41,418 bases of DNA, from contig WRKJ01000097.1 of the NCBI GenBank assembly GCA_009778135.1, positions 1-41,418 on the forward strand, in the 5' to 3' direction. A program made the translations under genes and the position numbers. The notes beneath the pieces are model-generated. The model was not told where the DNA came from. It did no database searches and saw only the letters and a program-made list of their open reading frames with translations. The DNA comes from Defluviitaleaceae bacterium (lineage in GTDB: Bacteria > Bacillota_I > Bacilli_A > MOL361 > Turicibacteraceae). Positions 4,687-39,713 of the stretch are shown piece after piece (the stretch's first letter is position 1; each line of letters starts with the position of its first letter).

Positions 4687-5670
4687 ATGAATGTTGTCAT
4701 GATTGTGCTTATTATTTTAACGTTGGTCTCATCCTTGATGAAAAAACAACGTTCAAACCTCCCTACTCCTTTTAAAACAAAAAATGAAACCATTAACCAT
4801 TTAGAATTATTGACTTTACCCATCCTCCTCACCTATACAGTCGAACAAATCGCAATGAAGATGGATCAACACATCGCTTCTCGTTTTGGGTCTGATGCCG
4901 TCTCTACTCTCGCTTATGCCACGAGCACTTCAACAGTTGTTTCAGGTATTTTCATCACGGCGCTCTTGGTGATTACCTTCCCTAAAATGGCAAAATTAGC
5001 CAAGCCACTTCAATTAACTGAGATGAAACATGCGTTATCGGGGTCGATCGTTGGAATGAGTCTGTTTATGATTCCTGTTATTGCCGCCGTTACCATGTTT
5101 GCACATCCTGTTAGTATGCTCCTCTTTCAATATGGTGCTTTCGATGCCGAAGCAGTAGATGTTATGTCAAACTTGTTGTTTTTCTATAGCTTCTCCTTGT
5201 TAGGAAATGGCTTGTCTCTGCTTATCTCACGTATGTTTTTTGCAATTGGCGATTTCAAGACACCCGTGATGGTTGCCGTCTTAACAGTCGTCACGCATTT
5301 TGTTTTAAATGTGCTACTGACATCTTTTGTCGGCATCACCGGTTTAGCAGTGGCAACAAGTCTCTCATCAGTGGGAGGGCTGACACTTTTGCTGTTGATG
5401 CTACGACGAAAAGTCGGAAGTCTACAATTGAGGCGCACGTTGATCTCTCTTAATAAAATAGCGGGTGCTTCTATTACAATGGCTTTTGGTGCTTATTCAG
5501 TTTATCAATACCTTTTAGCTTTTAATTCTATCATGGCTTTGGTTGTTTCAGCCTTGGTAGGGCTTGGTATTTACGGGATACTGTTACTGATTTTTCGAAT
5601 TCGAGAAGTTGATTATTTAATTGCAACAACAGTGGATCACATGAGGAAATGGGGAGGAAAGAGAAAATAA
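4687..5670 (+). CDS. MurJ/MviN-like flippase, C-terminal half only
   Basis: Polytopic membrane protein of 327 residues related to the lipid II flippase MurJ (MOP superfamily). The recognisable family stretch is MDQHIASRFGSDAVSTLAYA (about 58-77), which in full-length MurJ (about 500 residues, 14 membrane segments) lies near the middle. This protein starts with one hydrophobic helix (about 2-18) that would correspond to segment 6, then continues to the C terminus. The N-terminal lobe, about 180 residues, is missing. No frame upstream encodes it: 4429-4686 holds the two divergent promoters. An AAAGGTG site lies 11 bases before the ATG. It may be a deletion remnant that acquired a promoter, or a half-size transporter that pairs with itself. 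Confidence 0.75.
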   Translation: MNVVMIVLIILTLVSSLMKKQRSNLPTPFKTKNETINHLELLTLPILLTYTVEQIAMKMDQHIASRFGSDAVSTLAYATSTSTVVSGIFITALLVITFPKMAKLAKPLQLTEMKHALSGSIVGMSLFMIPVIAAVTMFAHPVSMLLFQYGAFDAEAVDVMSNLLFFYSFSLLGNGLSLLISRMFFAIGDFKTPVMVAVLTVVTHFVLNVLLTSFVGITGLAVATSLSSVGGLTLLLLMLRRKVGSLQLRRTLISLNKIAGASITMAFGAYSVYQYLLAFNSIMALVVSALVGLGIYGILLLIFRIREVDYLIATTVDHMRKWGGKRK

Positions 5671-5696
5671 CGATTTCCAATTTTTATCTTGCTCAA

Positions 5697-6218
5697 TCAG
5701 GTTGTGAAGAGGCTTGTTCCTTGGTGATCAATGGCAACAATAACAGGAAAATCTTCGACTTCTAGGCGATGAATGGCTTCAGTTCCTAAATCTTCAAATC
5801 CGATGACTTCGCAGCTTTTAATCTGTTGAGCAAGTAGCGCTGCCGCTCCCCCTACTGCGGCAAAATAAACAGCATGATTGCGCTTCATACTACGAATAAC
5901 TGTCTCGGATCGACCTCCTTTTCCGATCATACCTGTTGAACCTAAATCAAGTAACAGTGGCGAATATTTATCCATTCGAGAGCTGGTTGTTGGTCCGGCT
6001 GAACCAATAATGTCACCAGGTTTTGCCGGTGAAGGTCCGACATAGTAAATGACGCTATCTTTAAGTTCAAAAGGTAGCTTTTTTTCGGCTTCAATCCATT
6101 CAACCAGTCGTTTATGTGCTGCATCTCGTGCCGTATAGATCGTACCTGTTAAATGAACCAGTTCACCTGCTTTTAACTGTCGTACCTTTTCTTTTGTTAA
6201 AGGTAGGTTTAATTTCAT
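5697..6218 (-). CDS. class I fumarate hydratase-type hydro-lyase, beta subunit
   Basis: 173-residue C-terminal (beta) subunit of a two-subunit iron-sulfur fumarase/tartrate dehydratase. Family features are the VHLTGTIYTARDAAHKRL stretch near 22-39, YYVGPSPAKPGDIIGSAGPT (about 58-77), TSSRMDKYSP, and GKGG near 121. It starts 18 bases after the alpha gene behind GGAGGAG, so the two are co-translated as a pair. It catalyses the reversible fumarate/malate reaction if it is a true fumarase; the sequence alone does not separate this from L-tartrate dehydratase. It is the last gene of the long minus-strand nucleoside cluster and converges on the MurJ-like gene with only 26 bases between them. Confidence 0.9.
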   Translation of the reverse strand: MKLNLPLTKEKVRQLKAGELVHLTGTIYTARDAAHKRLVEWIEAEKKLPFELKDSVIYYVGPSPAKPGDIIGSAGPTTSSRMDKYSPLLLDLGSTGMIGKGGRSETVIRSMKRNHAVYFAAVGGAAALLAQQIKSCEVIGFEDLGTEAIHRLEVEDFPVIVAIDHQGTSLFTT

Positions 6219-6236
6219 GGTAGGATCTCCTCCGTT

Positions 6237-7076
6237 TTAAAAGATTTTCGTCATGTGGCGTGATGCATGACATTGGATGTTGACTGCAACAGGTAAAGAG
6301 GCAATATGACAGGGGTAGGTGTTAACTTTGACTGCCAAAGCTGTCGTTTTGCCACCAAAGCCCATTGGTCCGACATTCAGCTCATTAATTTCTTTTAGTA
6401 ATTCTCGCTCTAGCTGTGCTGAAATCTCATCTTCGGAAACGTCATCAAGTGGACGCATCAACGCTTCTTTCGAAATCAAAGCACATTTTTCGAAGCTACC
6501 ACCAATTCCGACACCCACAATAATGGGGGGGCATGGATTTCCTCCAGCAGAACGGATTGTATCTAACACCATTTGCTTCACACCTTCGTATCCTTCAGAA
6601 GGTTTCAACATACGCAATTGACTTTGATTTTCACTGCCTGCACCTTTAGCCGCAATGGTTAGCTTAAGTTGATCTCCCAGAACCCGTTGATAATGAATCA
6701 CTGCAGGTGTGTTGTCTTTTGTATTCACCCGATCTAATGGATGACGAACCACTGATTTTCGCAAATATCCCTGTTGATAACCTTGGCGAATGCCTTCATT
6801 GATCGCTTCATCCAAGTTCCCTCGTACTTGTAAGTCTTCTCCCAATGCTGCATAAACAACCACAATACCTGTGTCTTGACACATGGGAACATGCTTTCTC
6901 GCTGCAATTTCATCATTTTCAATGATTTGTCCTAAAATATTTCGACCAAGCGCTGAAGTTTCATCTCGCGCTGCTTTTTTTAGGGCCCCTAATAGTTGAT
7001 CGTCTACGTAGTAATTCATCTCAATGCACATCTGAGCAATGTCTTCAACCAACGTTGACACATCTAATGTTCTCAT
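6237..7076 (-). CDS. class I fumarate hydratase-type hydro-lyase, alpha subunit
   Basis: Catalytic iron-sulfur (alpha) subunit of 279 residues. Three cysteines fit the [4Fe-4S] ligands of the family: [21 protein letters not shown] and [12 protein letters not shown] (residues 66, 182 and 198 from the start chosen here). I chose the ATG at 7076 because AAGGAGGT lies 6 bases upstream; an in-frame ATG at 7100 has no ribosome binding site. Together with the next gene it forms fumarase or a related dehydratase. Its place behind deoD suggests co-expression with nucleoside salvage, perhaps to use carbon entering from deoxyribose breakdown; that link is inference. Confidence 0.9.
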
Positions 7077-7122
7077 TTCAAGACCTCCTTGTGTACACAT
7101 TTTTTAATGGATCCATGCTGAC

Positions 7123-7854
7123 TTATCCTAGTTTAGCTGCTGTTTCTAAACCCACTTTCAACATGGCTGTAAAAGTTGTTTGTCTTTCTTCAGAAGTCGT
7201 TGCTTCACCAGTGAAAATCATGTCTGAAACGGTTAGAATCGCAAGGGCATTTTTCCCGAGACGTACTGCATTGGCATAAAGTGCTGCAGCTTCCATTTCA
7301 ACAGATAGAATCCCCATTTTTTCCCATGTGCGGTACGCTTCTGGGTTGTCATGATAAAAAATATCACTGGTCATAATATTACCAACTTTAACTGCTGTCC
7401 CAAGTTCTTTTGCTGATCCTACAGCCGTTTCTAATAACTCATAACTTGCAACTGGTGCATAACCCCCTGCAAAGCCATACTGATATAAATAATTAGAATC
7501 CGTTGACGCTGCCATACCAATCACGACATCTTTTAACTTGACGCCACCACCAATTCCACCTGCTGTTCCCACACGAATAATATTTTCGACATCATAAAAC
7601 TTAAACAATTCATACGAATAAATCCCAATAGATGCTGCACCCATCCCTGATCCCATGACGGATACGCGAACACCTTTATACGTCCCTGTAAAACCTAACA
7701 TCCCACGAACCCCATTAAACTGTACCGGGTTATCTAAAAACGTTTCAGCGATAAATTTCGCCCTTAACGGATCCCCTGGCATCAAAACCGTCTTCGCAAT
7801 CTCTCCTGCTTTTGCTTCAATATGTGCTGTTGGTATTGTCTGTGCTTGACTCAT
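7123..7854 (-). CDS. deoD: purine nucleoside phosphorylase, DeoD type
   Basis: Hexameric-type purine nucleoside phosphorylase, 243 residues. It converts purine (deoxy)nucleosides plus phosphate to base and (deoxy)ribose 1-phosphate in the cytosol. Seen in the sequence: IPTAHIEAKAGEIAKTVLMPGDPLRAK at the start, GSGMGAASIGIYSYELF (about 70-86), IIRVGTAGGIG, the substrate-binding VEMEAAAL (about 188) and LTVSDM. The start ATG overlaps the stop of the hepT-like gene (ATGA), and AAGGAGATG lies inside the end of that gene, so the two are translationally coupled. The product feeds phosphopentomutase (deoB) and then deoC in the same cluster. Confidence 0.95.
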   Translation of the reverse strand: MSQAQTIPTAHIEAKAGEIAKTVLMPGDPLRAKFIAETFLDNPVQFNGVRGMLGFTGTYKGVRVSVMGSGMGAASIGIYSYELFKFYDVENIIRVGTAGGIGGGVKLKDVVIGMAASTDSNYLYQYGFAGGYAPVASYELLETAVGSAKELGTAVKVGNIMTSDIFYHDNPEAYRTWEKMGILSVEMEAAALYANAVRLGKNALAILTVSDMIFTGEATTSEERQTTFTAMLKVGLETAAKLG

Positions 7855-8216
7855 GTTGAATCATCTCCTTTATGTACTTTTAATAGTTTATTTATTTCGT
7901 CTAATAACTGTGGGATGCCTTCTTGAACTGATTCCCAAAGAATATCTACATTCACGCCCTCGTAATCATGAACAATTCTATGACGCATCGAAATAATATC
8001 TTTCCACGGAATTTCACAGTATTTATTTTTAAACTCCGACGTTAACTTATTCATATGCTCGCCAATTTGACCTAAAGAAAAAACAACTGCAAAATTCAAT
8101 TGGTCATTGCTCTTTAGGTCGTTGACTGTTTTGTTTTTCGTGAAATCAGCAATAGATTCACAGTAAAAATGAATTTTTTGAATGCGATAAAAATCATCTT
8201 TAATGACTTTTTTCAT
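7851..8216 (-). CDS. hepT: HepT-like HEPN domain toxin (DUF86)
   Basis: Small helical HEPN ribonuclease-like protein, 121 residues. The active-site motif R-x4-H-x-Y is present as R78, H83 and Y85 in MRHRIVHDYEG. Family knowledge: with its MNT partner it forms a type VII toxin-antitoxin system in which the nucleotidyltransferase AMPylates the HEPN tyrosine and so blocks the RNase. Its gene overlaps the mntA-like gene by 17 bases and the deoD start by 4, which is unusual: a toxin whose translation is linked to a housekeeping salvage enzyme. Length and motif are normal, so it is probably intact. Confidence 0.88.
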   Translation of the reverse strand: MKKVIKDDFYRIQKIHFYCESIADFTKNKTVNDLKSNDQLNFAVVFSLGQIGEHMNKLTSEFKNKYCEIPWKDIISMRHRIVHDYEGVNVDILWESVQEGIPQLLDEINKLLKVHKGDDST

Positions 8217-8511
8217 AAATAATCTTGCCTTTCTGTTGAATTTCTATATCAATTAGGCTATTTGGAATGACAGAACGGGCTACAATCAAATCAATTTGAC
8301 AATCAATTGCGTCTTCAAGTTCACAACGCACACCAAAAAACCTAAATCCCCTTATCAATCCTTCATCATCGATTAATAAGTCAATATCGCTGTCCTCAGT
8401 CGCCTCACCTGTTGCATAAGAGCCAAACAAAATGGCTTTTTTTATGCCATTATTTTCAAAAATAGGGGTTAACTTGTTTTTAATATCTGAAATACTCAAC
8501 ATGTTTAACAC
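8200..8511 (-). CDS. mntA: MntA-like minimal nucleotidyltransferase antitoxin
   Basis: Minimal nucleotidyltransferase of 103 residues. The signature GS-x10-DxD is complete: G30-S31 and D42/D44 in LFGSYATGEATEDSDIDLL. A third acidic position is likely in the CQIDLIV strand. Known role of the family: AMPylates the partner HEPN toxin and neutralises it. The antitoxin gene comes first, with AGGAGGTG before the ATG, and overlaps the toxin gene by 17 bases. The upstream unknown gene stops 3 bases before this start, and its stop codon is part of this ribosome binding site, so at least three genes are coupled here. Confidence 0.88.
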   Translation of the reverse strand: MLNMLSISDIKNKLTPIFENNGIKKAILFGSYATGEATEDSDIDLLIDDEGLIRGFRFFGVRCELEDAIDCQIDLIVARSVIPNSLIDIEIQQKGKIIYEKSH

Positions 8512-8514
8512 CTC

Positions 8515-8952
8515 CTAGATGCACCTATCATTCACATATTCATACAATTTATGAACCGCTGCTTCATCTCCTAGCTGATGATAAGGGACATACAGTTGCT
8601 CCATCAATTCTAAGGGTAATTTTTCAATCAATTCCTTACTTGACAGCTCAAACTTCCATTGGTACAAAGCATACATGATTCCCACCCACTGCGGCAAAAA
8701 ACCACCCCATTGCTGACCACGTTGATAATCTGCTTGACATTCATGATGAATAAACCACCAAATCAATTCTTGCGGTGGCATACCTGCCCATTTTGGTGTG
8801 GCTTTATCTAAAAGTCGTCTGGTTTCTGATTTCATCCAAGATTTTATAAACCATTTCTCGTCAACTCCAGGCAATTCTTCACGAATATTTAAAAAAACAT
8901 ATCCTTGATTTTCAACAATATCTGACACATATAATTCACTATAAGCTGCCAT
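8515..8952 (-). CDS. unknown tryptophan-rich protein linked to toxin-antitoxin genes
   Basis: I do not recognise this 145-residue protein with certainty. It is mostly helical by composition, with no signal peptide or membrane segment. It is rich in Trp (KWFIKSW, ELIWWFIHHE, QWGGFLPQWVG, YQWKF) and contains one Cys near ECQAD. It has the look of proteins found beside DUF3990-type cassettes, but that is a memory-based hint. The start at 8952 is chosen because GGAAGGTGAT lies just before it; a TTG codon at 8967 overlaps that site. It directly precedes the mntA-like gene with a 3-base gap, so it may belong to that module or be the survivor of an older one. Confidence 0.7.
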   Translation of the reverse strand: MAAYSELYVSDIVENQGYVFLNIREELPGVDEKWFIKSWMKSETRRLLDKATPKWAGMPPQELIWWFIHHECQADYQRGQQWGGFLPQWVGIMYALYQWKFELSSKELIEKLPLELMEQLYVPYHQLGDEAAVHKLYEYVNDRCI

Positions 8953-8956
8953 TTGA

Positions 8957-9049
8957 TCACCTTCCAATGATGTCTAGTAATAAAGTACCTACTCGTTTAT
9001 CCGGCATATCCAAATAACGGCCTCTTGCATGATCATCTCCACTTATTTG
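8957..9049 (-). pseudogene. possible 3' remnant of a lost gene
   Basis: In the 165 bases between deoB and the unknown gene, one minus-strand frame stays open for 30 codons and reads like a protein C terminus (ARGRYLDMPDKRVGTLLLDI). Its TGA lies 4 bases before the next ATG, exactly the spacing of an operon junction. A stop precedes it in frame and there is no ribosome binding site, so if real it is the tail of a deleted gene. The family is not recognised. Chance is not excluded at this length. Confidence 0.3.
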
Positions 9050-9117
9050 TCACTACGCTTCTTACACTTGTGATCCTCTGAATACGCATTACAGGCTCAT
9101 ACCGCCATATCGCGTTG

Positions 9118-10296
9118 CTACTCCTTCGCAATCTCATTCAAAAAGCTCTCTCCTTCAATTTTACCATCTATTCCCAAATAGTCAAGAATGGTTTTCCCAA
9201 TATCAGAGAAGGTTGATCTTATTCCGAGGTTAATGCCTGATTTGATCGTCTTACCATAGACGAGAAGCGGGACATATTCTCGGGTATGGTCTGTTCCTTT
9301 AAAGGTTGGGTCACAACCATGATCCGCTGTCATCATCAATATATCCTCTTCTTTTAAAGCCCCAAGGATTTCTGGTAATCTTTTATCGAAATCCATTAAT
9401 GCTTTTGCATAACCTTTGTAATCACGCCGATGGCCATAAACTGAATCGAAATCGACTAGATTCGTGAAGATTAACCCGTGACTTTCCTGTTGTAGATGGG
9501 CGAGGGTCGCGTCAATCCCTGCCCCATTATCTTTTGTTGGCGTTGATTTGGTGATACCTTGTCCATCATAGATATCACTGATCTTACCAATGGCATTCAC
9601 CGCTAGTCCCGCTTCTTTAATGTAGTCTAGCATGGTTTTTGCAAAAGGTGCGACCGAGTAATCTTTTCTGTTGGCTGTTCTCGTATAGTTTTTTGATTCT
9701 CCAACAAATGGACGCGCAATCACACGTGAGACATTCCAATCATCAACGAGCATTTCCCGTGCAATCTGGCAAATATGCAATAATTCTTCTATTGGAACAA
9801 TGTCCTCATGGGCTGCAATTTGAAAGACACTATCGGCTGATGTGTAGATAATTAAATCACCTGTTGCCACATGTTCATCACCTAAACGACTGATAATCTC
9901 TGTTCCAGAAGCCACACAGTTGCCAATCACCTTTCGGCCAACCTTTTCTTCAAAGGCTCCAATTAAATCTTGTGGGAAACCCTGTGGATAAGTTGGGAAT
10001 GGATGCTCAACTTTTAGCCCTGAAATCTCCCAATGACCCGTAGTTGTATCCTTTCCTAAGGAAACCTCTGCGAGTTTTCCACAACTTCCTGTGAAAAAGT
10101 CCACTTTATCTCCAATCTTTTCCACACCTTGAATATGAGATAAACCCATCTGACACATATTCGGCAGTGTCATTTCTGGTACTTTTTCTTTAATGTTTAA
10201 CAACGTATTCGCACCAACATCTCCATAATCAGCGGCATCTGGCAACTCACCGACACCAACACTGTCTAAAACAATCAACACGACCCTTTTTGACAT
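9118..10296 (-). CDS. deoB: phosphopentomutase
   Basis: Phosphopentomutase of 392 residues, the usual length. It interconverts (deoxy)ribose 1- and 5-phosphate and so links the phosphorylases deoD and pdp to the aldolase deoC. Alkaline-phosphatase-fold metal sites are visible: VLIVLDSVGVGELPDA (metal Asp about 11), DKVDFFTG...GKDTTTGHWE (about 85-92), NLVDFDSVYGHRRD, and MMTADHGCDPTFKGTDHTRE near the C terminus. GGAGGTG precedes the ATG. It is the first gene after the ptuA-ptuB pair, 33 bases downstream, and is followed by the 165-base gap with the possible gene remnant. Confidence 0.96.
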   Translation of the reverse strand: MSKRVVLIVLDSVGVGELPDAADYGDVGANTLLNIKEKVPEMTLPNMCQMGLSHIQGVEKIGDKVDFFTGSCGKLAEVSLGKDTTTGHWEISGLKVEHPFPTYPQGFPQDLIGAFEEKVGRKVIGNCVASGTEIISRLGDEHVATGDLIIYTSADSVFQIAAHEDIVPIEELLHICQIAREMLVDDWNVSRVIARPFVGESKNYTRTANRKDYSVAPFAKTMLDYIKEAGLAVNAIGKISDIYDGQGITKSTPTKDNGAGIDATLAHLQQESHGLIFTNLVDFDSVYGHRRDYKGYAKALMDFDKRLPEILGALKEEDILMMTADHGCDPTFKGTDHTREYVPLLVYGKTIKSGINLGIRSTFSDIGKTILDYLGIDGKIEGESFLNEIAKE

Positions 10297-10329
10297 AGAT
10301 CATCACCTCCATTGTTTTAAAATTTAATT

Positions 10330-10938
10330 TCACGAATAATTCTGCAAATGAAATTCGATCAAAGTTTTAAAGTTTAACTTATCCTCTAAGTAGCCTTTTA
10401 ATGCCATTTTAACTGCTTCATCATCCATATATGTACACATGTTTGCTATTTGAAGATTAAAAACTTTACGCGATGCCAGTAAATCTTTTTCATTAAGTTT
10501 TAACGTATCAATGGTAAACTGTGCTTTTTGATAATCTGAATGGGATTCATCTATCTTACTTGGAACAATTTCTCCTGTTTCAAATTTATATTTCAAAAAG
10601 TTCATAGGTTCAATTAAAACAGGATTTAAAAAATCATTTGAAAATGTTCCCTTTTTAGCATGCCCACATGTTTGTGGGTCATTACAGGAGGTAAGCATAT
10701 TATCATACGCCTTATAATTCGATGCTTTGTGTTTAGGCTCAATATGCTCAATGTGTGAGGTATCAACATTAATCATTCGTTCACAATAAGGACAATAACC
10801 ATCTTGCTCCTTATCCAACATATGAGTTTTTAGTGAGCTTTTAATATCAGGTCCATAATCATCCCAACTTTTAGGATTACGCTTCTTTTTAAATTCAACA
10901 TGATGAATAGGGTCTAACGTTTTAGTTATCTTTAGCAT
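10330..10938 (-). CDS. ptuB: HNH endonuclease, PtuB-like (Septu effector)
   Basis: 202-residue HNH nuclease. A CxxC pair (C49, C52 in YCPYCERM) precedes HIEHIEPKH (62-70), then YDNMLTSCNDPQTCGHAKKG with N80, C85, C91 and H93, a zinc-supported beta-beta-alpha-metal site. This layout fits the TIGR02646/PtuB nucleases. Family knowledge: in Septu anti-phage systems and in some retrons, PtuB is the nuclease released or activated by the ATPase PtuA. The gene overlaps ptuA by 17 bases, the arrangement expected for a complex. It lies inside a nucleoside catabolism operon, which is not where defence genes are usually expected. Confidence 0.85.
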   Translation of the reverse strand: MLKITKTLDPIHHVEFKKKRNPKSWDDYGPDIKSSLKTHMLDKEQDGYCPYCERMINVDTSHIEHIEPKHKASNYKAYDNMLTSCNDPQTCGHAKKGTFSNDFLNPVLIEPMNFLKYKFETGEIVPSKIDESHSDYQKAQFTIDTLKLNEKDLLASRKVFNLQIANMCTYMDDEAVKMALKGYLEDKLNFKTLIEFHLQNYS

Positions 10939-12199
10939 GCTGACGCCTCCTTCTTGAAGCGCTCATTTCAATGAGCATCATTTCTTCATCAGCGGCACCT
11001 AATTGCTGTTTAAGTTCGTTAAGTAACTTTAGGTAAACCTCGGAGTCATACGCATCATCATCAAGCAAAGATCTTAATTCATTTAATTTGGCAGTCGTTT
11101 TTTCATCTCTTAAACTATCTAAATCCATGGTAACATTTAAAATATGTTCTGCACTTTTACCATAAGTTTGATAAGCCCGCTCGACTTGGATGACACCCTC
11201 CTCATTCCTAGACATCATGCGCACACTTTCCGTCGGCACACTACCGATGATAAGTGGCGAATGGGTTGCAATAATCAGTTGATTATTTTCTCCAATTTTA
11301 CGATAAACATCAATGATTTTACGTTGCCATTCGGGGTGGAGCGAATTTTCTGGCTCGTCAATGATGATGATGGCGTTATTAACGTTAAGATTTTTCAAAG
11401 GCAACATCCTAAAAAACAGTTGTTTTTCCCCAGCTGAGAGATCTTTAAGTTGAACTTTTTTCCCTGCTTTATTTTCAAAGAGTGGCATTTGTTTATTATC
11501 TGATGACAAACCTATTAATTTTATGTTAAGGTTTAAACTAGCGAAAATATCGTTGATTTCTGCGCATTCCTGGTCGTTAACCTTTTTTATAGGTCTGTCA
11601 TCATTTACTTGAATGGCACGTGAAAATGCACCAGTGATTTTTTTTACGATGTACGCATTGACATCATTTAGCACCCATTCATTGGCGTGAATGACAACAG
11701 GATCTGGTTTCGTTTTCTCTCTGATTTGGATATCTTTGCCAATGCCTAGTTCAGCTGGCATCCAAATAACTTCAGGTTGTAAAAAATCTGATTCATGACG
11801 ATAACTTTCAAAAACCATGGGTAAATCAAACCCTTCGATCGTCAAGTCTGTATGACGATTAGTGGTGTAATCTGAATCTTCATAGCTTTCTGTTAATGTT
11901 GTAAATCCATTTTCTTCAACGTAACTCACCAAATCAAATCCGAATTTACTATACTCACTGATCCGCTTCCCATCTTTTTCAGCTTGATTAAGTTGCTGAT
12001 ATCCTTGATACAGAGATGTATGCCGATGCCAATCATCCTCAATCATCTGAACAATCGCTTCTAATACCTTTGTCTTCCCTGTCCCGTTATCACCAATAAA
12101 AGCAACAATCTCCAACGGATTCCCGGACTCATCGGTAAAGTCAATCTCTAAATCACCCAAAACCGGATGTCCATCAAACTTTAACTGCTTAATTTTCAT
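10922..12199 (-). CDS. ptuA: PtuA-like AAA/ABC-type ATPase (Septu sensor)
   Basis: 425-residue SMC/ABC-type ATPase. Walker A is GDNGTGKT (36-43). An ABC-like signature LSAGEKQ (254-260), Walker B IIIIDEPE (277-284) and the H-loop histidine H313 in ATHSPLI follow in order. There is no TOPRIM domain, so it is not an OLD nuclease. The pairing with an overlapping HNH gene makes PtuA of Septu the best call; a retron-type system would need a reverse transcriptase, and none is seen. An AAGGTGAG site precedes the ATG, 11 bases after deoC. The C-terminal tail is basic (SASRRRRQ). Confidence 0.85.
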   Translation of the reverse strand: MKIKQLKFDGHPVLGDLEIDFTDESGNPLEIVAFIGDNGTGKTKVLEAIVQMIEDDWHRHTSLYQGYQQLNQAEKDGKRISEYSKFGFDLVSYVEENGFTTLTESYEDSDYTTNRHTDLTIEGFDLPMVFESYRHESDFLQPEVIWMPAELGIGKDIQIREKTKPDPVVIHANEWVLNDVNAYIVKKITGAFSRAIQVNDDRPIKKVNDQECAEINDIFASLNLNIKLIGLSSDNKQMPLFENKAGKKVQLKDLSAGEKQLFFRMLPLKNLNVNNAIIIIDEPENSLHPEWQRKIIDVYRKIGENNQLIIATHSPLIIGSVPTESVRMMSRNEEGVIQVERAYQTYGKSAEHILNVTMDLDSLRDEKTTAKLNELRSLLDDDAYDSEVYLKLLNELKQQLGAADEEMMLIEMSASRRRRQHAKDN

Positions 12200-12210
12200 T
12201 TAAACTCACC

Positions 12211-12951
12211 TTACCTTACACCCCTTTCGATTGTTTCCTGATTCACTCTCAAAAATTCCTCTCCATTAGCAAAGTATTTTTCTTTCAATTCTTCAATGAT
12301 GGCGATGCCTGCTGATGCACCGACACGCGTGGCACCATGTTTCAACATATCTAAAAACTGAGCCGCTGTACGAACACCACCCGACGCTTTGACTTGTACG
12401 TCATCAGGGGTCAACCTGTTCATCAGTGCAACATCTTCTACTGTTGCACCACTTGACGTAGTGCCTGTTGATGTTTTAACGAAGCTAGGCTTCACAATAC
12501 TTGCAATTTCACATAATTTGATCTTCTGATCTTCTGTCAAATAACAGGTTTCAAAAATAACCTTTGAGATAACCTGGTACTTGTTACAAATGACAACGAT
12601 GGCTTCCATTTCCCGCTTCAAGTAGTCCCAATTGCCTGCTCTGGCTTCACCAATGTTGATCACATAATCAATTTCATTGGCGCCATTTTGAAGGGCATTT
12701 TCTGTTTCAAATACTTTTGATTCAATAGAGGTTTGACCGAGCGGAAACGAAATGACTGCACATGCTTTAATGTCAGTTCCTTTTAAACAGTTTGCAGCGA
12801 CAGGTGATTGAACTTGGTTGAAGCAAGCCGAAGCAAAATGGTATTTTTGGGCTTCTACACATAAAACTTTGATATCATCTGTTAATGCATCTGCTTTTAA
12901 GTTGGTGTGATCAATCATGCGTGCTAGTTGATCCAATGTATAAGTTGCCAT
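12211..12951 (-). CDS. deoC: deoxyribose-phosphate aldolase
   Basis: Class I aldolase of 246 residues that splits 2-deoxyribose 5-phosphate into glyceraldehyde 3-phosphate and acetaldehyde. The Schiff-base lysine is in FVKTSTGTTSSGATVEDV (about residue 165) and the second active-site lysine in VQVKASGGVRTAAQ (about 195); IDHTNLKADAL at the start is also typical. I use the ATG at 12951, 9 bases after AGGAG; an in-frame TTG two codons upstream overlaps the spacer. It follows pdp by 12 bases. Its products enter glycolysis and acetyl-CoA metabolism. Confidence 0.96.
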   Translation of the reverse strand: MATYTLDQLARMIDHTNLKADALTDDIKVLCVEAQKYHFASACFNQVQSPVAANCLKGTDIKACAVISFPLGQTSIESKVFETENALQNGANEIDYVINIGEARAGNWDYLKREMEAIVVICNKYQVISKVIFETCYLTEDQKIKLCEIASIVKPSFVKTSTGTTSSGATVEDVALMNRLTPDDVQVKASGGVRTAAQFLDMLKHGATRVGASAGIAIIEELKEKYFANGEEFLRVNQETIERGVR

Positions 12952-12963
12952 GTTCAATTTCTC

Positions 12964-14307
12964 CTAATCTTTATTTTGATATATTTCTACATTTTCTTTT
13001 GTGACACGTGCATAAATAAGCGGTGGCTTTATCGGCTTCTCAGGTCCAAATTCCACTCCTTGAAGGAACAACGCTTTGGCTGAATCAAGAATGGCTTCAT
13101 CATCGGTTTTAAAGATGGCAATCATCTGATTTTTTTCAACAAAATCACCTGTTTTAGCTGTTAATTTAATACCTGAACCGTAGTTGTTGATCACATCATC
13201 AGCCGTCTGTCTACCCGCGCCTAACATACCCGATACAAGCCCAAGCGTTTCAGTATTCATCGCAGTGATATATCCTGTTTTCGGTGCGCTAACAAATGCT
13301 GCTATGTTAGCTGTCTCCAATACGTCAGGATCATCCAAACATGTCGTATCTCCACCCTGTGCTGCAATGATGTCACCAAACTTCTCAAGAGCTGCACCAC
13401 TTTCAAGTTGTCTATGCGCTTGCTCACGACACGTTTCGATAGGTGCATCAGTCGCTAGCTGAATCATATGAGCTGATAACTCAATACAAAGATCTATTAA
13501 ATCAGTCGCTAGTCGGACGCCTTTTAAAACGTGAATAACTTCCATCATTTCCAAGCCATTTCCGATGTGATAGCCGATTGGTGCGTTCATATCAGTAATT
13601 AAAGCAGCCGTTTTTTTCCCACAACGCTCACCGATATCGACCATTTCTTTGGCTAATTTAAGTGCATCTTCAAAGTCTTTCATAAAAGCACCATTACCGG
13701 TTTTCACATCGAGTACAATACCATCAGCACCTGATGCAATTTTCTTACTCATGATGCTTGCCGAAATTAATGACAGGTTATCGACCGTTGCCGTTTCATC
13801 TCGAAGGGCATAAAGCTTCTTATCCGCCGGTGCTAATTCACCTGTTTGTCCAGCTAAACAAGCCCCTACTTCTTCAACCCTTCTTAGAAAGTCATCTGGA
13901 TGAAATTCAATTTGAATGCCTGGAATAGATTCGATTTTATCTAACGTTCCACCTGTATGCCCCAGTCCACGTCCTGACATTTTTGCGACTTTAATGCCAA
14001 GGGAAGCCACAATGGACATGACGATAAAGGTCGTCTTATCCCCAACGCCACCTGTCGAATGTTTATCTACTTTAAAACCGTCGATTCCTGAAAGGTCAAC
14101 TGTATCACCGGAGTTTGCCATCGCCATTGTGAGTCCCGACGTTTCATCAGGATTCATCCCTTTGAAATAAACAGCCATACAAAAAGCTGACATCTGTTCA
14201 TTTGAAATGTCTCCTTTTGTATAACCGTCGATCATAAAATCAATTTCTTCTTGCGTCAAAGCCTTGCCATCTTTTTTCTTTTGAATCAAATCATACATTC
14301 TGATCAT
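12964..14307 (-). CDS. pdp: pyrimidine-nucleoside phosphorylase
   Basis: Pyrimidine nucleoside phosphorylase of 447 residues (thymidine/uridine phosphorylase family, three domains). Seen: KHSTGGVGDKTTFI (about 82-95, phosphate binding), MSGRGLGHTGGTLDKIESIPG (about 110-130), ALRDETATVDNLSLISASIMSKK and DVKTGNGAFM. It releases uracil or thymine and (deoxy)ribose 1-phosphate. The ATG at 14307 overlaps the cdd stop by 4 bases with AAGGAGTG just upstream; a second ATG three codons later is too far from that site. It acts after cytidine deaminase and before deoB/deoC. Confidence 0.96.
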   Translation of the reverse strand: MIRMYDLIQKKKDGKALTQEEIDFMIDGYTKGDISNEQMSAFCMAVYFKGMNPDETSGLTMAMANSGDTVDLSGIDGFKVDKHSTGGVGDKTTFIVMSIVASLGIKVAKMSGRGLGHTGGTLDKIESIPGIQIEFHPDDFLRRVEEVGACLAGQTGELAPADKKLYALRDETATVDNLSLISASIMSKKIASGADGIVLDVKTGNGAFMKDFEDALKLAKEMVDIGERCGKKTAALITDMNAPIGYHIGNGLEMMEVIHVLKGVRLATDLIDLCIELSAHMIQLATDAPIETCREQAHRQLESGAALEKFGDIIAAQGGDTTCLDDPDVLETANIAAFVSAPKTGYITAMNTETLGLVSGMLGAGRQTADDVINNYGSGIKLTAKTGDFVEKNQMIAIFKTDDEAILDSAKALFLQGVEFGPEKPIKPPLIYARVTKENVEIYQNKD

Positions 14308-14732
14308 TCACTTGACACTCCTTTTAATTTCAGATGCGTTGGTCCAAATCGGTAAGGTAATAACGCATCTAGACGATATACGTTCAAATGTTCATCACGA
14401 TCAACCAAGATGATTTTAAAATCAGGTTCACAAAATTCAGCCATCACTTGGAGACAAACACCACATGGATAACAACAATCTGTTTGGGCATCATCAAAGC
14501 CACCGACAATGGCAATTGCTTCGAACGTTGTTACACCTTCAGAAATAGCTTTGAAAAAGGCTGTCCGTTCAGCACAATTGGTCGGTGTATAAGAGGCTGA
14601 TTCAATGTTACAACCTGTGTAAACTTTACCATTGCTAGCAAGTAAAGCTGTCCCTACTTTAAATGTCGAGTATGGCGCATAGGAAAAGTTCCGCGATAAA
14701 GAAGCCAATTCTATTAAATTTCTGTCATGCAT
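14304..14732 (-). CDS. cdd: cytidine deaminase
   Basis: Homotetrameric-type cytidine deaminase, 142 residues. Zinc ligands and the catalytic Glu are visible as TNCAERTA (C-A-E) and PCGVC; YSTFKVGTALLASNGKVYTG binds substrate. It deaminates cytidine and deoxycytidine to uridine forms for pdp. I use the ATG at 14732, preceded by AAAGGGTGA; the in-frame ATG at 14753 would place that site inside the coding sequence. It overlaps pdp by 4 bases and follows the binding lipoprotein gene by 48 bases. Confidence 0.95.
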   Translation of the reverse strand: MHDRNLIELASLSRNFSYAPYSTFKVGTALLASNGKVYTGCNIESASYTPTNCAERTAFFKAISEGVTTFEAIAIVGGFDDAQTDCCYPCGVCLQVMAEFCEPDFKIILVDRDEHLNVYRLDALLPYRFGPTHLKLKGVSSE

Positions 14733-14780
14733 GCTTAAATCACCCTTTCTCATATCCTTAACAGTTGATACGATTTAAAC

Positions 14781-16133
14781 TTAATCTGCTAATGCTTCGT
14801 TTGCACGTTCTTGTGCACGTGTTAAAGCTGTTTCTATGTCATAAAGGCCTAAGCGAATGTTTCCGAGTTCCTCGCCTAGAATTTGCCACACCTGATTGGC
14901 ACCCATCGAACGAGCAGTCATAAAGCCAGCATCGAACTGATCAGATGGTGCAGCCGCTTGTGGATTCTCTAATAAGAAGTCCGTGAAGATGGGGTGATGA
15001 CGTCCTGAATACGTCACGGGGATGTACCCTGAATCCATTGCCCACTGTGCTGTCACTTCTGGTCGTAATGTGAATGCCATAAATGTCCATGCAGCATGTT
15101 GTTCTTCTTCAGACATGCCATTGTCAAATAAAACAATGTCGTTTCCTTGGAAACGTGTTGCAGCATTTCCATTGTAAGTCGGAAGCACCGCGGTTGACCA
15201 TTCGAACGCTCCGTCTACTGCACTGGCAACATGTGGCATACTTGTAGAAGATCCGATATACATGGCAACAAATCCATTGCCAAATACACCTGATAAGAAG
15301 TTGTCTTCACCAGCAAAACGTGCATAACCTGCTTCATGTAAATCCATAACAAATCGTGCTGCATCAATGCCGGGCTGCGCTCCGAAATGTGCAATTTCTG
15401 TTACTTCATCAATATACGCGCCACCATGTTGCAATGTTAAAGCAATAAACTCAGTACCCCAACCATTTTCAAAGCCCATCCCAAAGCGGTTTTCATCAGG
15501 ATTTGTTAAAATTTGTGCCACTTCAATTAACGCTTCCCAAGTTGTTGGGACTTCTACATCATAAGCTTCGAGTAAATCAATGTTGTAGTAAAGCACCCGC
15601 GTACTTTTTCCAAGTGGCACCGACATAAACTCACCGTCCCAAATCACACCTTCACGAAAAACCGCGATGATGTCATCCATTTCATCCTGTGACAAACCAT
15701 TGTCAGGGTCATTGAATAAGGCTGTTAACGGTAAAAGAATCCCATCATTCACATAGCCTGTAATGTTATCCGTCGTTTGTTGTGCCATATGAGGCAATGT
15801 TCCTGCCATGGCAGATCCCATGATTAACGTGTTAATGTCAGCGTAACTTCCTTGATATTCTGCACGAATACGAATATGAGGATACGCATGATGAAAAGCA
15901 TCAATCAATGTCGTTAACGCTGCTTCGTGTGGACCAGTCATCGCATGCCAGAAGTCTAAGTAAATAACATGTTCATCTACAGTTGGTTCTCCATTTTCAT
16001 CCGCTGTATCTGGCTCATCTACAGTTGGTTGTGTCTCAGCTGTTTCTGGTTCGACTGCATTTTCACATGCGACTAAAAACAGAAGTGGTGCAACAAGTAC
16101 TAAAAGCAATAATAAAAGTTTTTTGTTTTTCAT
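14781..16133 (-). CDS. orphan extracellular sugar-type solute-binding lipoprotein
   Basis: ABC-importer binding protein of family 1 (UgpB/MalE-like), 450 residues. A lipoprotein signal sequence ends in LFLVAC (Cys about 23), followed by an acidic, Thr/Glu/Pro-rich linker (about 25-55) and a mature domain beginning IYLDFWHAMTGPHEAAL. I chose the ATG at 16133 because GAAGGAG precedes it; the in-frame ATG at 16157 does not have a site. No permease or ATPase gene is adjacent; the next gene is cdd. It may deliver a substrate to permeases encoded elsewhere. Bmp-type nucleoside binding proteins belong to a different family, so a nucleoside ligand is not implied by the fold. Confidence 0.85.
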   Translation of the reverse strand: MKNKKLLLLLLVLVAPLLFLVACENAVEPETAETQPTVDEPDTADENGEPTVDEHVIYLDFWHAMTGPHEAALTTLIDAFHHAYPHIRIRAEYQGSYADINTLIMGSAMAGTLPHMAQQTTDNITGYVNDGILLPLTALFNDPDNGLSQDEMDDIIAVFREGVIWDGEFMSVPLGKSTRVLYYNIDLLEAYDVEVPTTWEALIEVAQILTNPDENRFGMGFENGWGTEFIALTLQHGGAYIDEVTEIAHFGAQPGIDAARFVMDLHEAGYARFAGEDNFLSGVFGNGFVAMYIGSSTSMPHVASAVDGAFEWSTAVLPTYNGNAATRFQGNDIVLFDNGMSEEEQHAAWTFMAFTLRPEVTAQWAMDSGYIPVTYSGRHHPIFTDFLLENPQAAAPSDQFDAGFMTARSMGANQVWQILGEELGNIRLGLYDIETALTRAQERANEALAD

Positions 16134-16206
16134 TTCCCTTTTTCTCCTTCGGCACATGCCCTCATATCGTCATTTTAACGTCTCCTGTGACGAATGTCTA
16201 AAAGTC

Positions 16207-16237
16207 ATTATACCACTTGGGTTGCCAATGAGCAACC
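16207..16237 (-). promoter_or_regulatory. promoter of the nucleoside cluster with a palindrome over the -35 box
   Basis: Minus strand: TTGCTC (16230-16235), 17-base spacer, TATAAT (16207-16212). An interrupted palindrome GGTTGC-n6-GCAACC (16220-16237) covers the -35 box and half of the spacer, the place expected for a repressor site. It stands in front of the binding-protein/cdd/pdp/deoC genes. The regulator is not in the window. Confidence 0.65.
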
Positions 16238-16239
16238 TT

Positions 16240-16405
16240 CTAGTGCAGCAAAACGTAAGTAATAGCGCATATTGGCGTGTATCATTTTCAAATACAAGGA
16301 AACGAGGACGACTCGTACCAATTTCGGTACGTTAGGACGAGTTGGCGCAGTCGTTGGAAATGAGACGCATGAATAGGCGTAGTTACTTATGTTGTGATGC
16401 ACTAG
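16240..16405. repeat. 166-base imperfect palindrome (long hairpin element)
   Basis: The ends are CTAGTGCA and TGCACTAG. From AGTGCA (16242) inward the two arms align without gaps for about 54 bases with roughly 38 identities, and many of the mismatches would be G-U pairs in RNA. The centre holds a second small hairpin, CGTACC-AATTTC-GGTACG. The size and self-complementarity fit a MITE-like or REP-like element or a structured RNA. It lies between the divergent promoter of the nucleoside cluster and rel. Confidence 0.7.
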
Positions 16406-16630
16406 CTGTTAAGATGTTGTTTTTTTGCACCTTACTGGTTCACTATTTGTTAAAAGCAAGGGTTTTACACTTAAAAAGTCAACGTGAAAAACATGCCAAC
16501 GTGAAAAAAATTGACTATTATCTGATATTACTACCTCAAACAACTAGCTTGTCATCTGATTTTATGATAAAATGTCAACAACAGTAGAAAAGCAAAACAA
16601 TTAATTTGTAACATCTGAGAGGGTGCACAC

Positions 16631-18814
16631 ATGGATATTAAAAATGAAATTCAGACTGAAAAGATCACCATTGATTTGATTATTTCAACAGTTAGTCGCT
16701 ATGTGAAAGATCAAAATAGTCTTGAGATTATCAAAAAAGCTTATGCATTGGCTGAATCACAACATGTTGGTCAATTAAGAAAATCAGGTGAACCTTATAT
16801 TTTACATCCTCTTGAAGTCACTTATATTTTAGCTTTGTGGCAAACAGGCCCTAAAACAATTGCCGCTGGTTTAATGCATGATGTGATTGAAGACACCAAC
16901 ATTTCAAAAGCAGAACTCATCGAAATGTTTGATGAAGACATTGCCAACTTAGTGGACAGTGTGACAAAGTTAACGCAATTGGATTATGTTTCAAGAGAAA
17001 GTGCCCAAGCTGAAAATCACCGAAAAATGCTTTTAGCAATGAGTCGTGACATTCGTGTCATTCTCATTAAACTAGCAGACCGTCTTCACAACATCCGAAC
17101 CCTTAAACATCTCAGACCTGATAAACAAATTCGGATTTCAAGAGAAACCATGGACATCTATGTCCCAATTGCACATCGTCTCGGTATGTTTCAAGTAAAA
17201 GCTGAATTTGAAGACACTTGCTTACGTTATTTAGAACCTGAATCGTTCTACGGCATTGTACGCCTCATGAAAAAGAAAAAGAGTGAACGAGAAGCTAATG
17301 TCGAGCGGATGATTAATCGCATCTCTGAAATCCTTGAAGCCGAAGGATTTAACTTTAGTATTAAAGGTCGAATCAAAAATATTTATAGTATCTATAAAAA
17401 AATGCTGTCTGGAGATAAAGAGTTTGAAGAGATTTACGACTTATTGGCCATTCGTTTAATTGTCGACTCATTGCAAGATTGTTATGCTGCTTTAGGCGCC
17501 ATCCACGCGAATTTTAAACCTATTCCCAACCGCTTTAAAGACTACATCGCCATGCCAAAGCCTAATATGTATCAATCCCTTCATACGACCGTTATTTCTC
17601 AACGTGGAAATATCTATGAAATTCAAATTAGAACGAAAGAAATGGATGAAATTGCTGAAAAAGGGGTTGCTGCACATTGGGCTTATAAAGAAAATGCCCG
17701 TACAACAGCACAAGAGCAACGTGAAATCCAAGATAAATTGAAATGGTATGAAACGTTAAGTACGTACGAAAATGAAGTAAATGATGCTGAAAACTTACTT
17801 GAGTTTGTTAAAGAAGACATTTTCAATGCCAACATCTATGTCTTTACACCTAGAGGTGATGTCTTAGATTTCCCACCCAAGTCGACACCGGTTGACTTTG
17901 CCTATCGGGTTCACACCGATCTAGGTCATCGCACAACTGGCGCCATTGTTAATGGGCGGATTGTCCCTTTGTCCTACCACTTGAAAATGGGAGATGTCGT
18001 TGAAATAAAATCCAATCGAAATTCTTTTGGACCTAGTGAAGAATGGCTAAACTTCGTTGGAACGACCCAAGCGCGACATAAGATTAGGCAGTTCTTCAAT
18101 AAAGCGAAACGTCAAGATAATATTTTACGCGGGGAAGAATTATTCCTTGCTGAACTTAAATCTTTGGATAAAACGCTTGCTAATATTGATTTAAAAGCAT
18201 TATCAACTATGCATAAAAAACTGGTTCTCTCCTCGTGGGAAGATCTTTACCATGATTTAGGTCGTGGCTATGTAACAGCGAAAACAATTCTCGAACGCTA
18301 TTTTGAAAAAGACATGGTCGTCGATGAAGGTGCCCTTGTCTCTCAAATCAACGAACGCAAGAAAGATATCCAAGCGAAAAACCGATTTGGCATTGTGGTA
18401 GATGGCTTAGTCAATGTGGACATTAAAATTGCCAAATGTTGCCATCCTGTGCCAGGTGATCCCATCACAGGTTTTATTACGAAAACGAATGGCATCGCCA
18501 TCCACCACACAGATTGTGCTAATTTAAAGGACAAATCCCGTTTTGTTGATGTCTGGTTCACAGATGATATCCAAACATCATTTGTTGCAAAAATTCGTGT
18601 CAAAGCATTGGCTCGACAAAACATTTTAAGTGATGTCATTACGAAAATTTCGAGTTTAAATGTTAATATTGAAAGCTTAAATACCAACACATTGAGAGAA
18701 ACAGCCATTATCGATTTGGAGTTATCCGTTATCCATCTTGATATTCTTAACAAGAGCGCAACTGGACTAAGGTCTATCAAAGACGTTTTCTCTGTTGAGC
18801 GCGTTCTCCGTTAA
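16631..18814 (+). CDS. rel: bifunctional (p)ppGpp synthetase/hydrolase Rel
   Basis: Long RSH enzyme of 727 residues, the master of the stringent response. The HD hydrolase domain comes first (H45, H59, HD at 83-84 in LMHDVIEDT), then the synthetase domain with YDLLAIRLIV (about 258-267) and RFKDYIAMPKPNMYQSLHTT. The RxKD form is known from bifunctional Rel enzymes. Next come TGS (about 393-455, VFTPRGDVLDFPP), the conserved-cysteine region (KCCHPVPGDPITGFIT) and a C-terminal ACT domain (about 655-727). All catalytic motifs look intact. GAGAGGGTG lies before the ATG. It is followed after 25 bases by a response regulator, probably in one transcript. Confidence 0.97.
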   Translation: MDIKNEIQTEKITIDLIISTVSRYVKDQNSLEIIKKAYALAESQHVGQLRKSGEPYILHPLEVTYILALWQTGPKTIAAGLMHDVIEDTNISKAELIEMFDEDIANLVDSVTKLTQLDYVSRESAQAENHRKMLLAMSRDIRVILIKLADRLHNIRTLKHLRPDKQIRISRETMDIYVPIAHRLGMFQVKAEFEDTCLRYLEPESFYGIVRLMKKKKSEREANVERMINRISEILEAEGFNFSIKGRIKNIYSIYKKMLSGDKEFEEIYDLLAIRLIVDSLQDCYAALGAIHANFKPIPNRFKDYIAMPKPNMYQSLHTTVISQRGNIYEIQIRTKEMDEIAEKGVAAHWAYKENARTTAQEQREIQDKLKWYETLSTYENEVNDAENLLEFVKEDIFNANIYVFTPRGDVLDFPPKSTPVDFAYRVHTDLGHRTTGAIVNGRIVPLSYHLKMGDVVEIKSNRNSFGPSEEWLNFVGTTQARHKIRQFFNKAKRQDNILRGEELFLAELKSLDKTLANIDLKALSTMHKKLVLSSWEDLYHDLGRGYVTAKTILERYFEKDMVVDEGALVSQINERKKDIQAKNRFGIVVDGLVNVDIKIAKCCHPVPGDPITGFITKTNGIAIHHTDCANLKDKSRFVDVWFTDDIQTSFVAKIRVKALARQNILSDVITKISSLNVNIESLNTNTLRETAIIDLELSVIHLDILNKSATGLRSIKDVFSVERVLR

Positions 18815-39483: not shown

Positions 39484-39488
39484 TTTAA

Positions 39489-39713
39489 TCACCACTTTCT
39501 AAACGTCATCCGTACTTCTTCTATTATAACCCATTCGGTATCTTTTTTCCACTGTTGATCTAGACTGTTCGCTCCATCATCTTCGAGAAATGTCATCAAA
39601 TCGAACTTGTAAACAACCTTCTTTTTGACGAAAAAATGGGAATCAATTGACCGTTGATCGGACATCATTTCAATAACGTTAAATACAGAGTATGGACAAA
39701 TTAGCTTTTCCAT
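39489..39713 (-). CDS. doubtful small protein upstream of the AAA/nuclease gene
   Basis: 74-codon frame ending 6 bases inside the start region of the AAA/nuclease gene. The composition is protein-like (KKKVVYKFDLMTFLEDDG, KKDTEWVIIEEVRMTF), but there is no ribosome binding site before its ATG and no known domain. Its 5' end overlaps the divergent ROK promoter. It could be a real small upstream gene or chance. Confidence 0.3.
   Translation of the reverse strand: MEKLICPYSVFNVIEMMSDQRSIDSHFFVKKKVVYKFDLMTFLEDDGANSLDQQWKKDTEWVIIEEVRMTFRKW

Follow-up and report, generated by a model that had tools for sequence, protein, structure and literature searches.

Gene content of the deo locus

The window analyzed here is a stretch of 41,418 nucleotides from a Defluviitaleaceae bacterium (contig WRKJ01000097.1), and it carries an intact, ordinary type I Septu gene pair in an unusual place, inside an operon for nucleoside salvage. 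The genes relevant to this arrangement are given below in the order in which they are read.

14304..14753, minus strand: cdd, cytidine deaminase (TIGR01354, 135.3 bits)
12964..14307, minus strand: pyrimidine-nucleoside phosphorylase, pdp/deoA type (TIGR02644, 508.7 bits)
12211..12957, minus strand: deoC, deoxyribose-phosphate aldolase, 248 aa (TIGR00126, 237 bits, cut-off 117.3)
10922..12199, minus strand: ptuA, type I Septu ATPase of the ABC type (compact subfamily, 425 aa)
10330..10938, minus strand: ptuB, type I Septu nuclease of the HNH type (202 aa)
9118..10296, minus strand: deoB, phosphopentomutase (TIGR01696, 516.8 bits, cut-off 341.2)
8515..8967, minus strand: PDC-M42B gene, an orphan and candidate defense gene B (PADLOC PDC-M42B, E = 3.2e-36)
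8200..8511, minus strand: mntA-like nucleotidyltransferase gene, antitoxin-like member of a pair (Pfam Polbeta, 59.8 bits)
7851..8216, minus strand: hepT-like gene for a HEPN protein, the toxin-like partner in that pair (Pfam HepT-like, 72.9 bits, cut-off 23.5)
7123..7854, minus strand: deoD, purine-nucleoside phosphorylase (TIGR00107, 303.6 bits)

The complete minus-strand order is a gene for a solute-binding protein, cdd, pdp, deoC, ptuA, ptuB, deoB, M42B, mntA, hepT, deoD, and genes for two fumarase subunits, and the same-strand run begins with either the solute-binding protein gene or cdd and extends through deoD and the two fumarase genes. Counted from the listed starts, the successive gaps are 27, -4, 6, 11, -17, and 33 bases from the solute-binding protein gene to deoB, and 150, 3, -17, -4, 22, and 18 bases from deoB to the second fumarase gene; the final 4 bases of hepT overlap the start of deoD. 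The likely start codons of deoC, M42B, and mntA are the ATGs at 12951, 8952, and 8502, respectively. A preliminary description of this DNA had placed ptuA and ptuB between deoC and deoB on one strand, with an overlap of 17 bases within the pair and gaps of 11 and 33 bases on its two sides. All of these particulars hold, the two genes being adjacent and co-oriented, and the identities of deoC and deoB are secure from their TIGRFAM scores. That account of the locus was correct for the pair and its deo neighbors, and it left out the second, foreign-looking block, which lies between deoB and deoD, as well as the full extent of the same-strand run.

The suggestion that the pair is arranged as an operon with the salvage genes is likewise supported by the tight same-strand packing and by the distribution of terminator-like sites. 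Promoter-like and terminator-like sites were counted in positions 6900-16700 and compared with shuffled sequences. Promoter-like sites are no more common than in the shuffles (23 versus a mean of 29.7), and 10 terminator-like sites were counted versus 6.5 (standard deviation 3.0). None of the 4 minus-strand terminator-like sites in this interval is located at the deoC-ptuA or ptuB-deoB junction, and therefore ptuAB is likely co-transcribed with the deo operon. As for isolation of the pair by an internal promoter and terminator, the absence of terminator-like sites from the junctions speaks against it, and in view of one promoter-like match (10/12) inside deoC, at 12540-12513, the pair may have a promoter of its own.

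Identity of PtuA and PtuB

The earlier assignment of the pair to Septu was borne out by profile searches, whose scores are far above chance. The PADLOC model PtuA1 (PDLC00289, 404 positions in length) matches PtuA with E = 3e-98 and covers residues 1-421 of 425, and PtuB1 (PDLC00332) matches PtuB with E = 1.9e-40. PtuA also contains a Pfam AAA_21 match of 91.5 bits. For PtuB, the TIGR02646 score of 76.5 bits exceeds the cut-off of 52.15, and the Pfam HNH score of 20.2 falls slightly below the cut-off of 21.4. The top sequence match of PtuA in the PDB is the PtuA protein of entry 8ee4 (E = 6.1e-16, or 1.2e-24 with profile A1), and profile A2 matches PtuB chains in the same database. AlphaFold models made from four-row alignments have mean pLDDT values of 37.7 for PtuA and 39.8 for PtuB, too low for the models to inform on the fold.

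The ABC-type ATPase motifs and the HNH motif reported previously are both present and intact. PtuA carries a Walker A motif (GDNGTGKT, from residue 36), a signature motif (LSAGE, 254), a Walker B motif (DEP, 281), and, as the His loop, THS (312). PtuB carries the HNH-type motifs CPYC (49) and HIEHI (62). With type I Septu as represented by PDB entries 8ee4/8ee7 and by the E. coli B88 system, the window shares the adjacent genes for an ABC ATPase and a TIGR02646-type HNH protein as well as the catalytic motifs; it differs in that its PtuA is a compact protein of 425 aa belonging to the PDLC00289 subfamily, and in its position within a nucleoside-salvage operon.

One review describes PtuAB as a 6:2 complex of ATPase and nuclease by which phage DNA is degraded (PMC12948488), and another review lists the trigger of Septu among matters that are unclear (PMC12198126). 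The PtuAB proteins of B88 Septu and of retron Eco7 are described as cleaving tRNA-Tyr, and defense by the B88 system as being lost in Walker mutants and in HNH mutants (PMC13096335, PMC11555353). Because the pair in the window retains the motifs needed for the PtuAB mechanism, its most likely function is ordinary Septu defense.

The second block between deoB and deoD

The genes between deoB and deoD resemble components of other defense and toxin-antitoxin systems. The HepT-like protein contains RHRIVHDY and the MntA-like protein contains GSYATGEATEDSDID; these correspond to R-x4-H-x-Y and GSX10DXD, the motifs of HepT-like and MntA-like proteins, respectively, which the block has in common with MntA-HepT, a type VII toxin-antitoxin system. 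Both proteins exceed their Pfam cut-offs. The pair in this block differs from that system in scoring below the NCBIfam equivalog cut-offs (52.2 bits against a cut-off of 60 for NF047752 with the MntA-like protein, and 27.1 against 60 for NF047751 with the HepT-like protein) and in being embedded between deoB and deoD.

The M42B gene has no M42A partner adjoining it in the window, and the combination of M42A and M42B that defines PDC-M42 is therefore not present at this locus. An M42A gene would not fit into the 150 bases that separate deoB from M42B. In Treponema saccharophilum, a relative of M42B lies directly behind a DUF3990-annotated gene that matches PDC-M42A with E = 3.2e-109. The interval from deoB to M42B (8970-9117, about 150 bases) has no reading frame of gene size, and it might contain remnants of the absent PDC-M42A partner or of some previous insertion. 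An open stretch of 24 residues upstream of M42B has the look of a protein tail, and a search of plasmids at E<=10 found no counterpart.

Comparison with a related operon and possible marks of insertion

The most informative comparison is with G001, which is 75% complete and which alone among the genomes returned by the searches belongs to the same genus. In its locus L056, deoC (7797-8507), deoB (8514-9698), and deoD (9726-10457) are contiguous with no room for an intervening gene, and both ptuAB and M42B-mntA-hepT are absent from this deoC-deoB-deoD segment. The proteins encoded on either side of the second block are 84% (DeoB) and 81% (DeoD) identical between the two genomes. DeoC is 236 aa long in G001 versus 248 aa in the window, and about 10 of the additional residues make up a C-terminal tail, unlike that of G001, directly ahead of ptuA. 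In G001, similar TGCCACTTTT...AGTGGCA repeat elements were seen by eye at about 7500-7780 of L056, beside deoC, and on L147 downstream of pyrD; these possibly belong to an interspersed repeat family.

A deoB query found matches in 36 of 40 genomes (the genome of the window, hereafter G000, and 39 others), with those in G010 and G022 reaching only E of about 1e-4. These were viewed as 30 loci, including that of G000 and covering 30 of the 36 deoB-matching genomes, by tblastn for deo genes in flanks of about 1.5 kb, and additionally in longer stretches for ten of the relatives. Among the 30 loci, deoC, deoB, and deoD occur in a row only in G000, with the inserts between them, and in G001, although diverged deo genes may escape tblastn. 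Matches resembling deoD and pdp lie near deoB at L042 (G008), and a weak deoD-like match lies near deoB at L055, in both cases without deoC.

Base composition sets parts of the two blocks apart. The lowest G+C values among the 37 window genes measured are those of ptuB (0.31), hepT (0.31), and mntA (0.33), and cdd, pdp, deoC, deoB, and deoD range from 0.39 to 0.42. The values for ptuA and M42B are 0.38, and the codon usage of ptuA is ordinary and near that of its neighbors, such that its composition does not clearly indicate a foreign origin.

Target-site duplications were sought at the edges of both blocks and rejected. The best match between the ptuAB flanks is 10 bases; 219 of 500 shuffles did as well, and as a control, 28% of 406 pairs of gene-start regions scored as high as these flanks. 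At the second block, the best match of 9 bases was reached by 83 of 500 shuffles. No recombinase gene lies beside the ptuAB block. The nearest transposase gene found, a DDE-type gene at 28463-29806 of the window, is about 16 kb from ptuAB.

Septu genes elsewhere

At E<=1e-30, profile A1 recovered only the PtuA of the window from 395 genomes of the class and an overlapping draw of 392 genomes of the phylum, with four candidates scored per genome among those listed. TIGR02646 matched 7 of the 395 class genomes at E<=1e-8, 3 of them over the cut-off and the window's own among these; the same seven were matched in the phylum draw of 392, and 1 of 14 well-known genomes was matched as a control.

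No deo genes were found by tblastn near the six other TIGR02646 loci (L076-L081), near L022-L024, or on the plasmid locus L104, although L077 is a contig of 3.4 kb that says little about such a neighborhood. By tblastn, L079 has neither ptuA nor ptuB, and L078 and L081 have ptuA alone. The pairs of Clostridium acetireducens (L023), Clostridium hydrogenum (L024), and a Bacillota metagenome-assembled genome (L022) belong to the same subfamily as the pair in the window, with 39-41% identity in both proteins, and differ from it in that their fetched flanks are without deo genes. In these distant relatives outside deo operons, ptuA and ptuB overlap by 14 bases, versus 17 in the window. Judging by eye, the C. 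acetireducens cassette sits between or inside type I restriction-like genes, an HsdS-like gene lies about 5 kb from L022, and a transposase-like gene lies downstream of the C. hydrogenum pair.

PtuA matches also occur in 127 plasmid records; at L104, the one neighborhood viewed, ptuB-like sequence follows. In viral contigs, profile A1 found 21 loci that are 27-45% identical, mostly in the ATPase core. These viral loci have no deo genes by tblastn, and profile A2 confirmed none of them.

MntA-HepT pairs in pyrimidine operons

At E<=0.001, HepT occurs at two places in the genome of the window, and the second place is a pyrimidine operon, where it is accompanied by its own MntA. Such a pair also occurs in G002, a genome from another genus of the family.

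L082, 8706-9534 (C98 of G000): MntA-HepT pair at the 3' end of pyrD
L127, 2633-3434 (G002): MntA-HepT pair at the 3' end of pyrD

In G000, this operon reads carB, an EcsC-family gene, pyrK, pyrD, mntA, hepT, a HAD phosphatase gene, a convergent glpK-like gene, pyrF, and pyrE, with names assigned by eye except those of EcsC, HepT, and mntA (a PDC-S09 match). In G002, the order is pyrK-pyrD-mntA-hepT-pyrF-pyrE with overlapping ends, and the overlaps of the pair with pyrD and pyrF suggest translational coupling. No HepT was detected in G003-G007. The distance from pyrD to pyrF is about 0.4 kb in G005 and G006 and about 1.2 kb, without annotation, in G007, and pyrF lies beyond the fetched flank in G003 and G004. 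At the pyrD-pyrF junction, the two genomes of the genus are not alike: G001 carries a gene for a nucleotidyltransferase of the CCA-adding/poly(A) polymerase type there (L153, 5915-7291), and it has no HepT match.

The pyr HepTs of G000 and G002 share 55% identity, whereas the pyr and deo HepTs of G000 share only 28%, and therefore the deo and pyr pairs of G000 most likely represent separate acquisitions. Bacillaceae plasmids carry relatives at about 50% identity, with matches in 48 records, and thus G000 and G002 may also have acquired their pyr pairs separately. A profile of the two pyr HepTs at E<=1e-5 matched 3 of 237 class genomes, namely these two and one with a weak partial match.

More broadly, 20 HepT places were found in 13 of 60 genomes, including the two in G000. 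For the 18 places outside this genome, 17 stretches were fetched, and tblastn located pyr or deo genes only at C56 of G002; therefore, residence in such operons is not a general habit of HepT in the class. By a small and post hoc count, HepT pairs reside in nucleotide operons in 2 of 2 cases in G000 and 1 of 3 in G002. Together with the one Septu pair found in G000, both HepT pairs of that genome lie in nucleotide-metabolism operons, a tally that is again small and post hoc.

Interpretation

These observations are probably best explained by horizontal acquisition of a Septu cassette that inserted into the deo operon and now travels as a passenger on its transcript, with the second block having arrived as a separate acquisition. 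Given that the one comparable relative has no such pair, Septu most likely landed in the operon and borrows its transcription. The ptuA-ptuB cassette would have been acquired as one overlapping mobile unit and placed at the 3' end of deoC, just before the ribosome-binding site of deoB, so that the neighboring genes stay open. It now most likely rides the deo transcript, and M42B-mntA-hepT would have been put between deoB and deoD in a second event. Presumably as in other Septu systems, PtuA ATPase oligomers would carry the PtuB HNH nuclease, which would cut nucleic acid upon infection, either nicked DNA or tRNA-Tyr if it resembles the studied systems. Placement among the deo genes most likely gives the pair steady or nucleoside-responsive transcription as a passenger, as opposed to an evolved sensing circuit. 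Counting against this explanation are the single relative available for comparison, the ordinary composition of ptuA, and the lack of a target-site duplication and of an adjacent recombinase gene. Also against it is the presence of two foreign-looking blocks in the deo operon plus the pair in the pyr operon, which is more than a single random insertion predicts.

If the pair is only a passenger, the locus offers a clean case of a defense cassette in a core metabolic operon whose host genes stay open. Since such a cassette has no adjacent recombinase gene and sits in a metabolic operon, searches limited to defense islands would miss systems of this kind. Titles and abstract openings of the open-access papers searched mentioned no deo or pyr operon that contains Septu or MntA-HepT.

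The preliminary description had proposed that the pair is functionally coupled to its operon, with deoxynucleosides released during host or phage-driven DNA breakdown inducing the deo promoter, raising PtuAB levels, and arming the defense. In a variant of this proposal, the PtuAB and MntA-HepT proteins sense nucleotide pools and the shared transcript sets their dose. Several observations fit, including the tight packing within the deo operon, the MntA-HepT pair in the pyr operon of the same genome, and the pair at the same pyrD-pyrF junction in another genus. ATP reportedly inhibits PtuAB. Moreover, defense that responds to nucleotide pools exists in Clover, which is described as responding to dTTP, a precedent at the level of the protein and not of the operon (PMC12265719). 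Nevertheless, the G001 operon is without the pair, the other Septu loci examined are without nearby deo genes, and no regulator or operator was identified. A tie between the defense and nucleoside release thus finds no support, and the lack of conservation of the pair at the deo site speaks against an established link to nucleosides. Coupling of this kind appears unlikely.

Also improbable is that the blocks are ancestral to the operon of the genus and were lost in G001. A single relative with the same gene order and no outgroup leaves insertion in G000 and loss in G001 unpolarized, and the codon usage of ptuA is near that of its neighbors. Conversely, ptuB, mntA, and hepT have an AT-rich composition, the loss scenario would require two independent clean deletions, and no other PtuA of the subfamily reached E<=1e-30 in the 395 class genomes, with four candidates per genome scored among those listed. 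Insertion in G000 is therefore favored over loss in G001. The absence of the pair from all relatives, which would mark it as a recent random insertion, is closely approached, in that the one informative relative lacks it.

A broader and similarly doubtful proposal is that, in this family, nucleotide-dependent immune modules (PtuAB and the nucleotide-consuming MntA-HepT) repeatedly settle in operons of nucleotide metabolism, deo for salvage and pyr for synthesis, and that selection keeps such insertions because their transcription or translation follows the nucleotide state of the infected cell. If the clustering in deo and pyr operons were general, it would connect nucleotide pools, in a way open to testing, with how abortive defense is expressed.

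Misclassification of the pair was considered as well. The ATPase is also matched by models for AriA of PARIS (best E = 1.9e-27) and for ATPase_I-A (2.6e-39), HNH_I-A (3.7e-29) ranks second among the PADLOC models that match the nuclease, and TIGR02646 is described as an HNH family of retron systems. In PARIS, the partner of AriA is the TOPRIM protein AriB; here, the partner matches PtuB and HNH_I-A models (among the best 25 of 35 families). Homologs of both window proteins form the PtuAB effector of type I-A retrons (Eco7/Ec78), from which the pair in the window differs in having no adjacent reverse transcriptase gene and in falling well below the NCBIfam cut-offs for the retron Ec78 equivalogs (133 of 500 bits for NF041760, PtuA, and 91.5 of 150 for NF041761, PtuB). 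The pair is flanked by deoC and deoB, and no reverse transcriptase was detected among 38 window proteins scanned, 36 by Pfam (27 of these at E<=1e-5 only) and pdp and cdd by NCBIfam. An Rfam search of positions 5000-17000 found nothing at the locus and one match outside it, far below the gathering score. With the AriA and retron I-A models far weaker than PtuA1 and PtuB1, it is very improbable that the ATPase is AriA of a PARIS-like system or that the pair serves a type I-A retron as its effector.

Additional features of the window

Two further regions merit brief mention. A gene with AAA-ATPase_like and PDDEXK_9 domains (37783-39495) has a G+C content of 0.34 and no PADLOC match, and is possibly another mobile or defense-type gene. 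Between 20799 and 25005, genes for a KDGP aldolase, a SelA-like protein, DUF4310 and DUF4311 proteins, and a glycine-rich SFCGS protein are flanked by amidohydrolase genes, and this cluster perhaps allows an amino-sugar or sugar-acid conjugate to be taken up and degraded.
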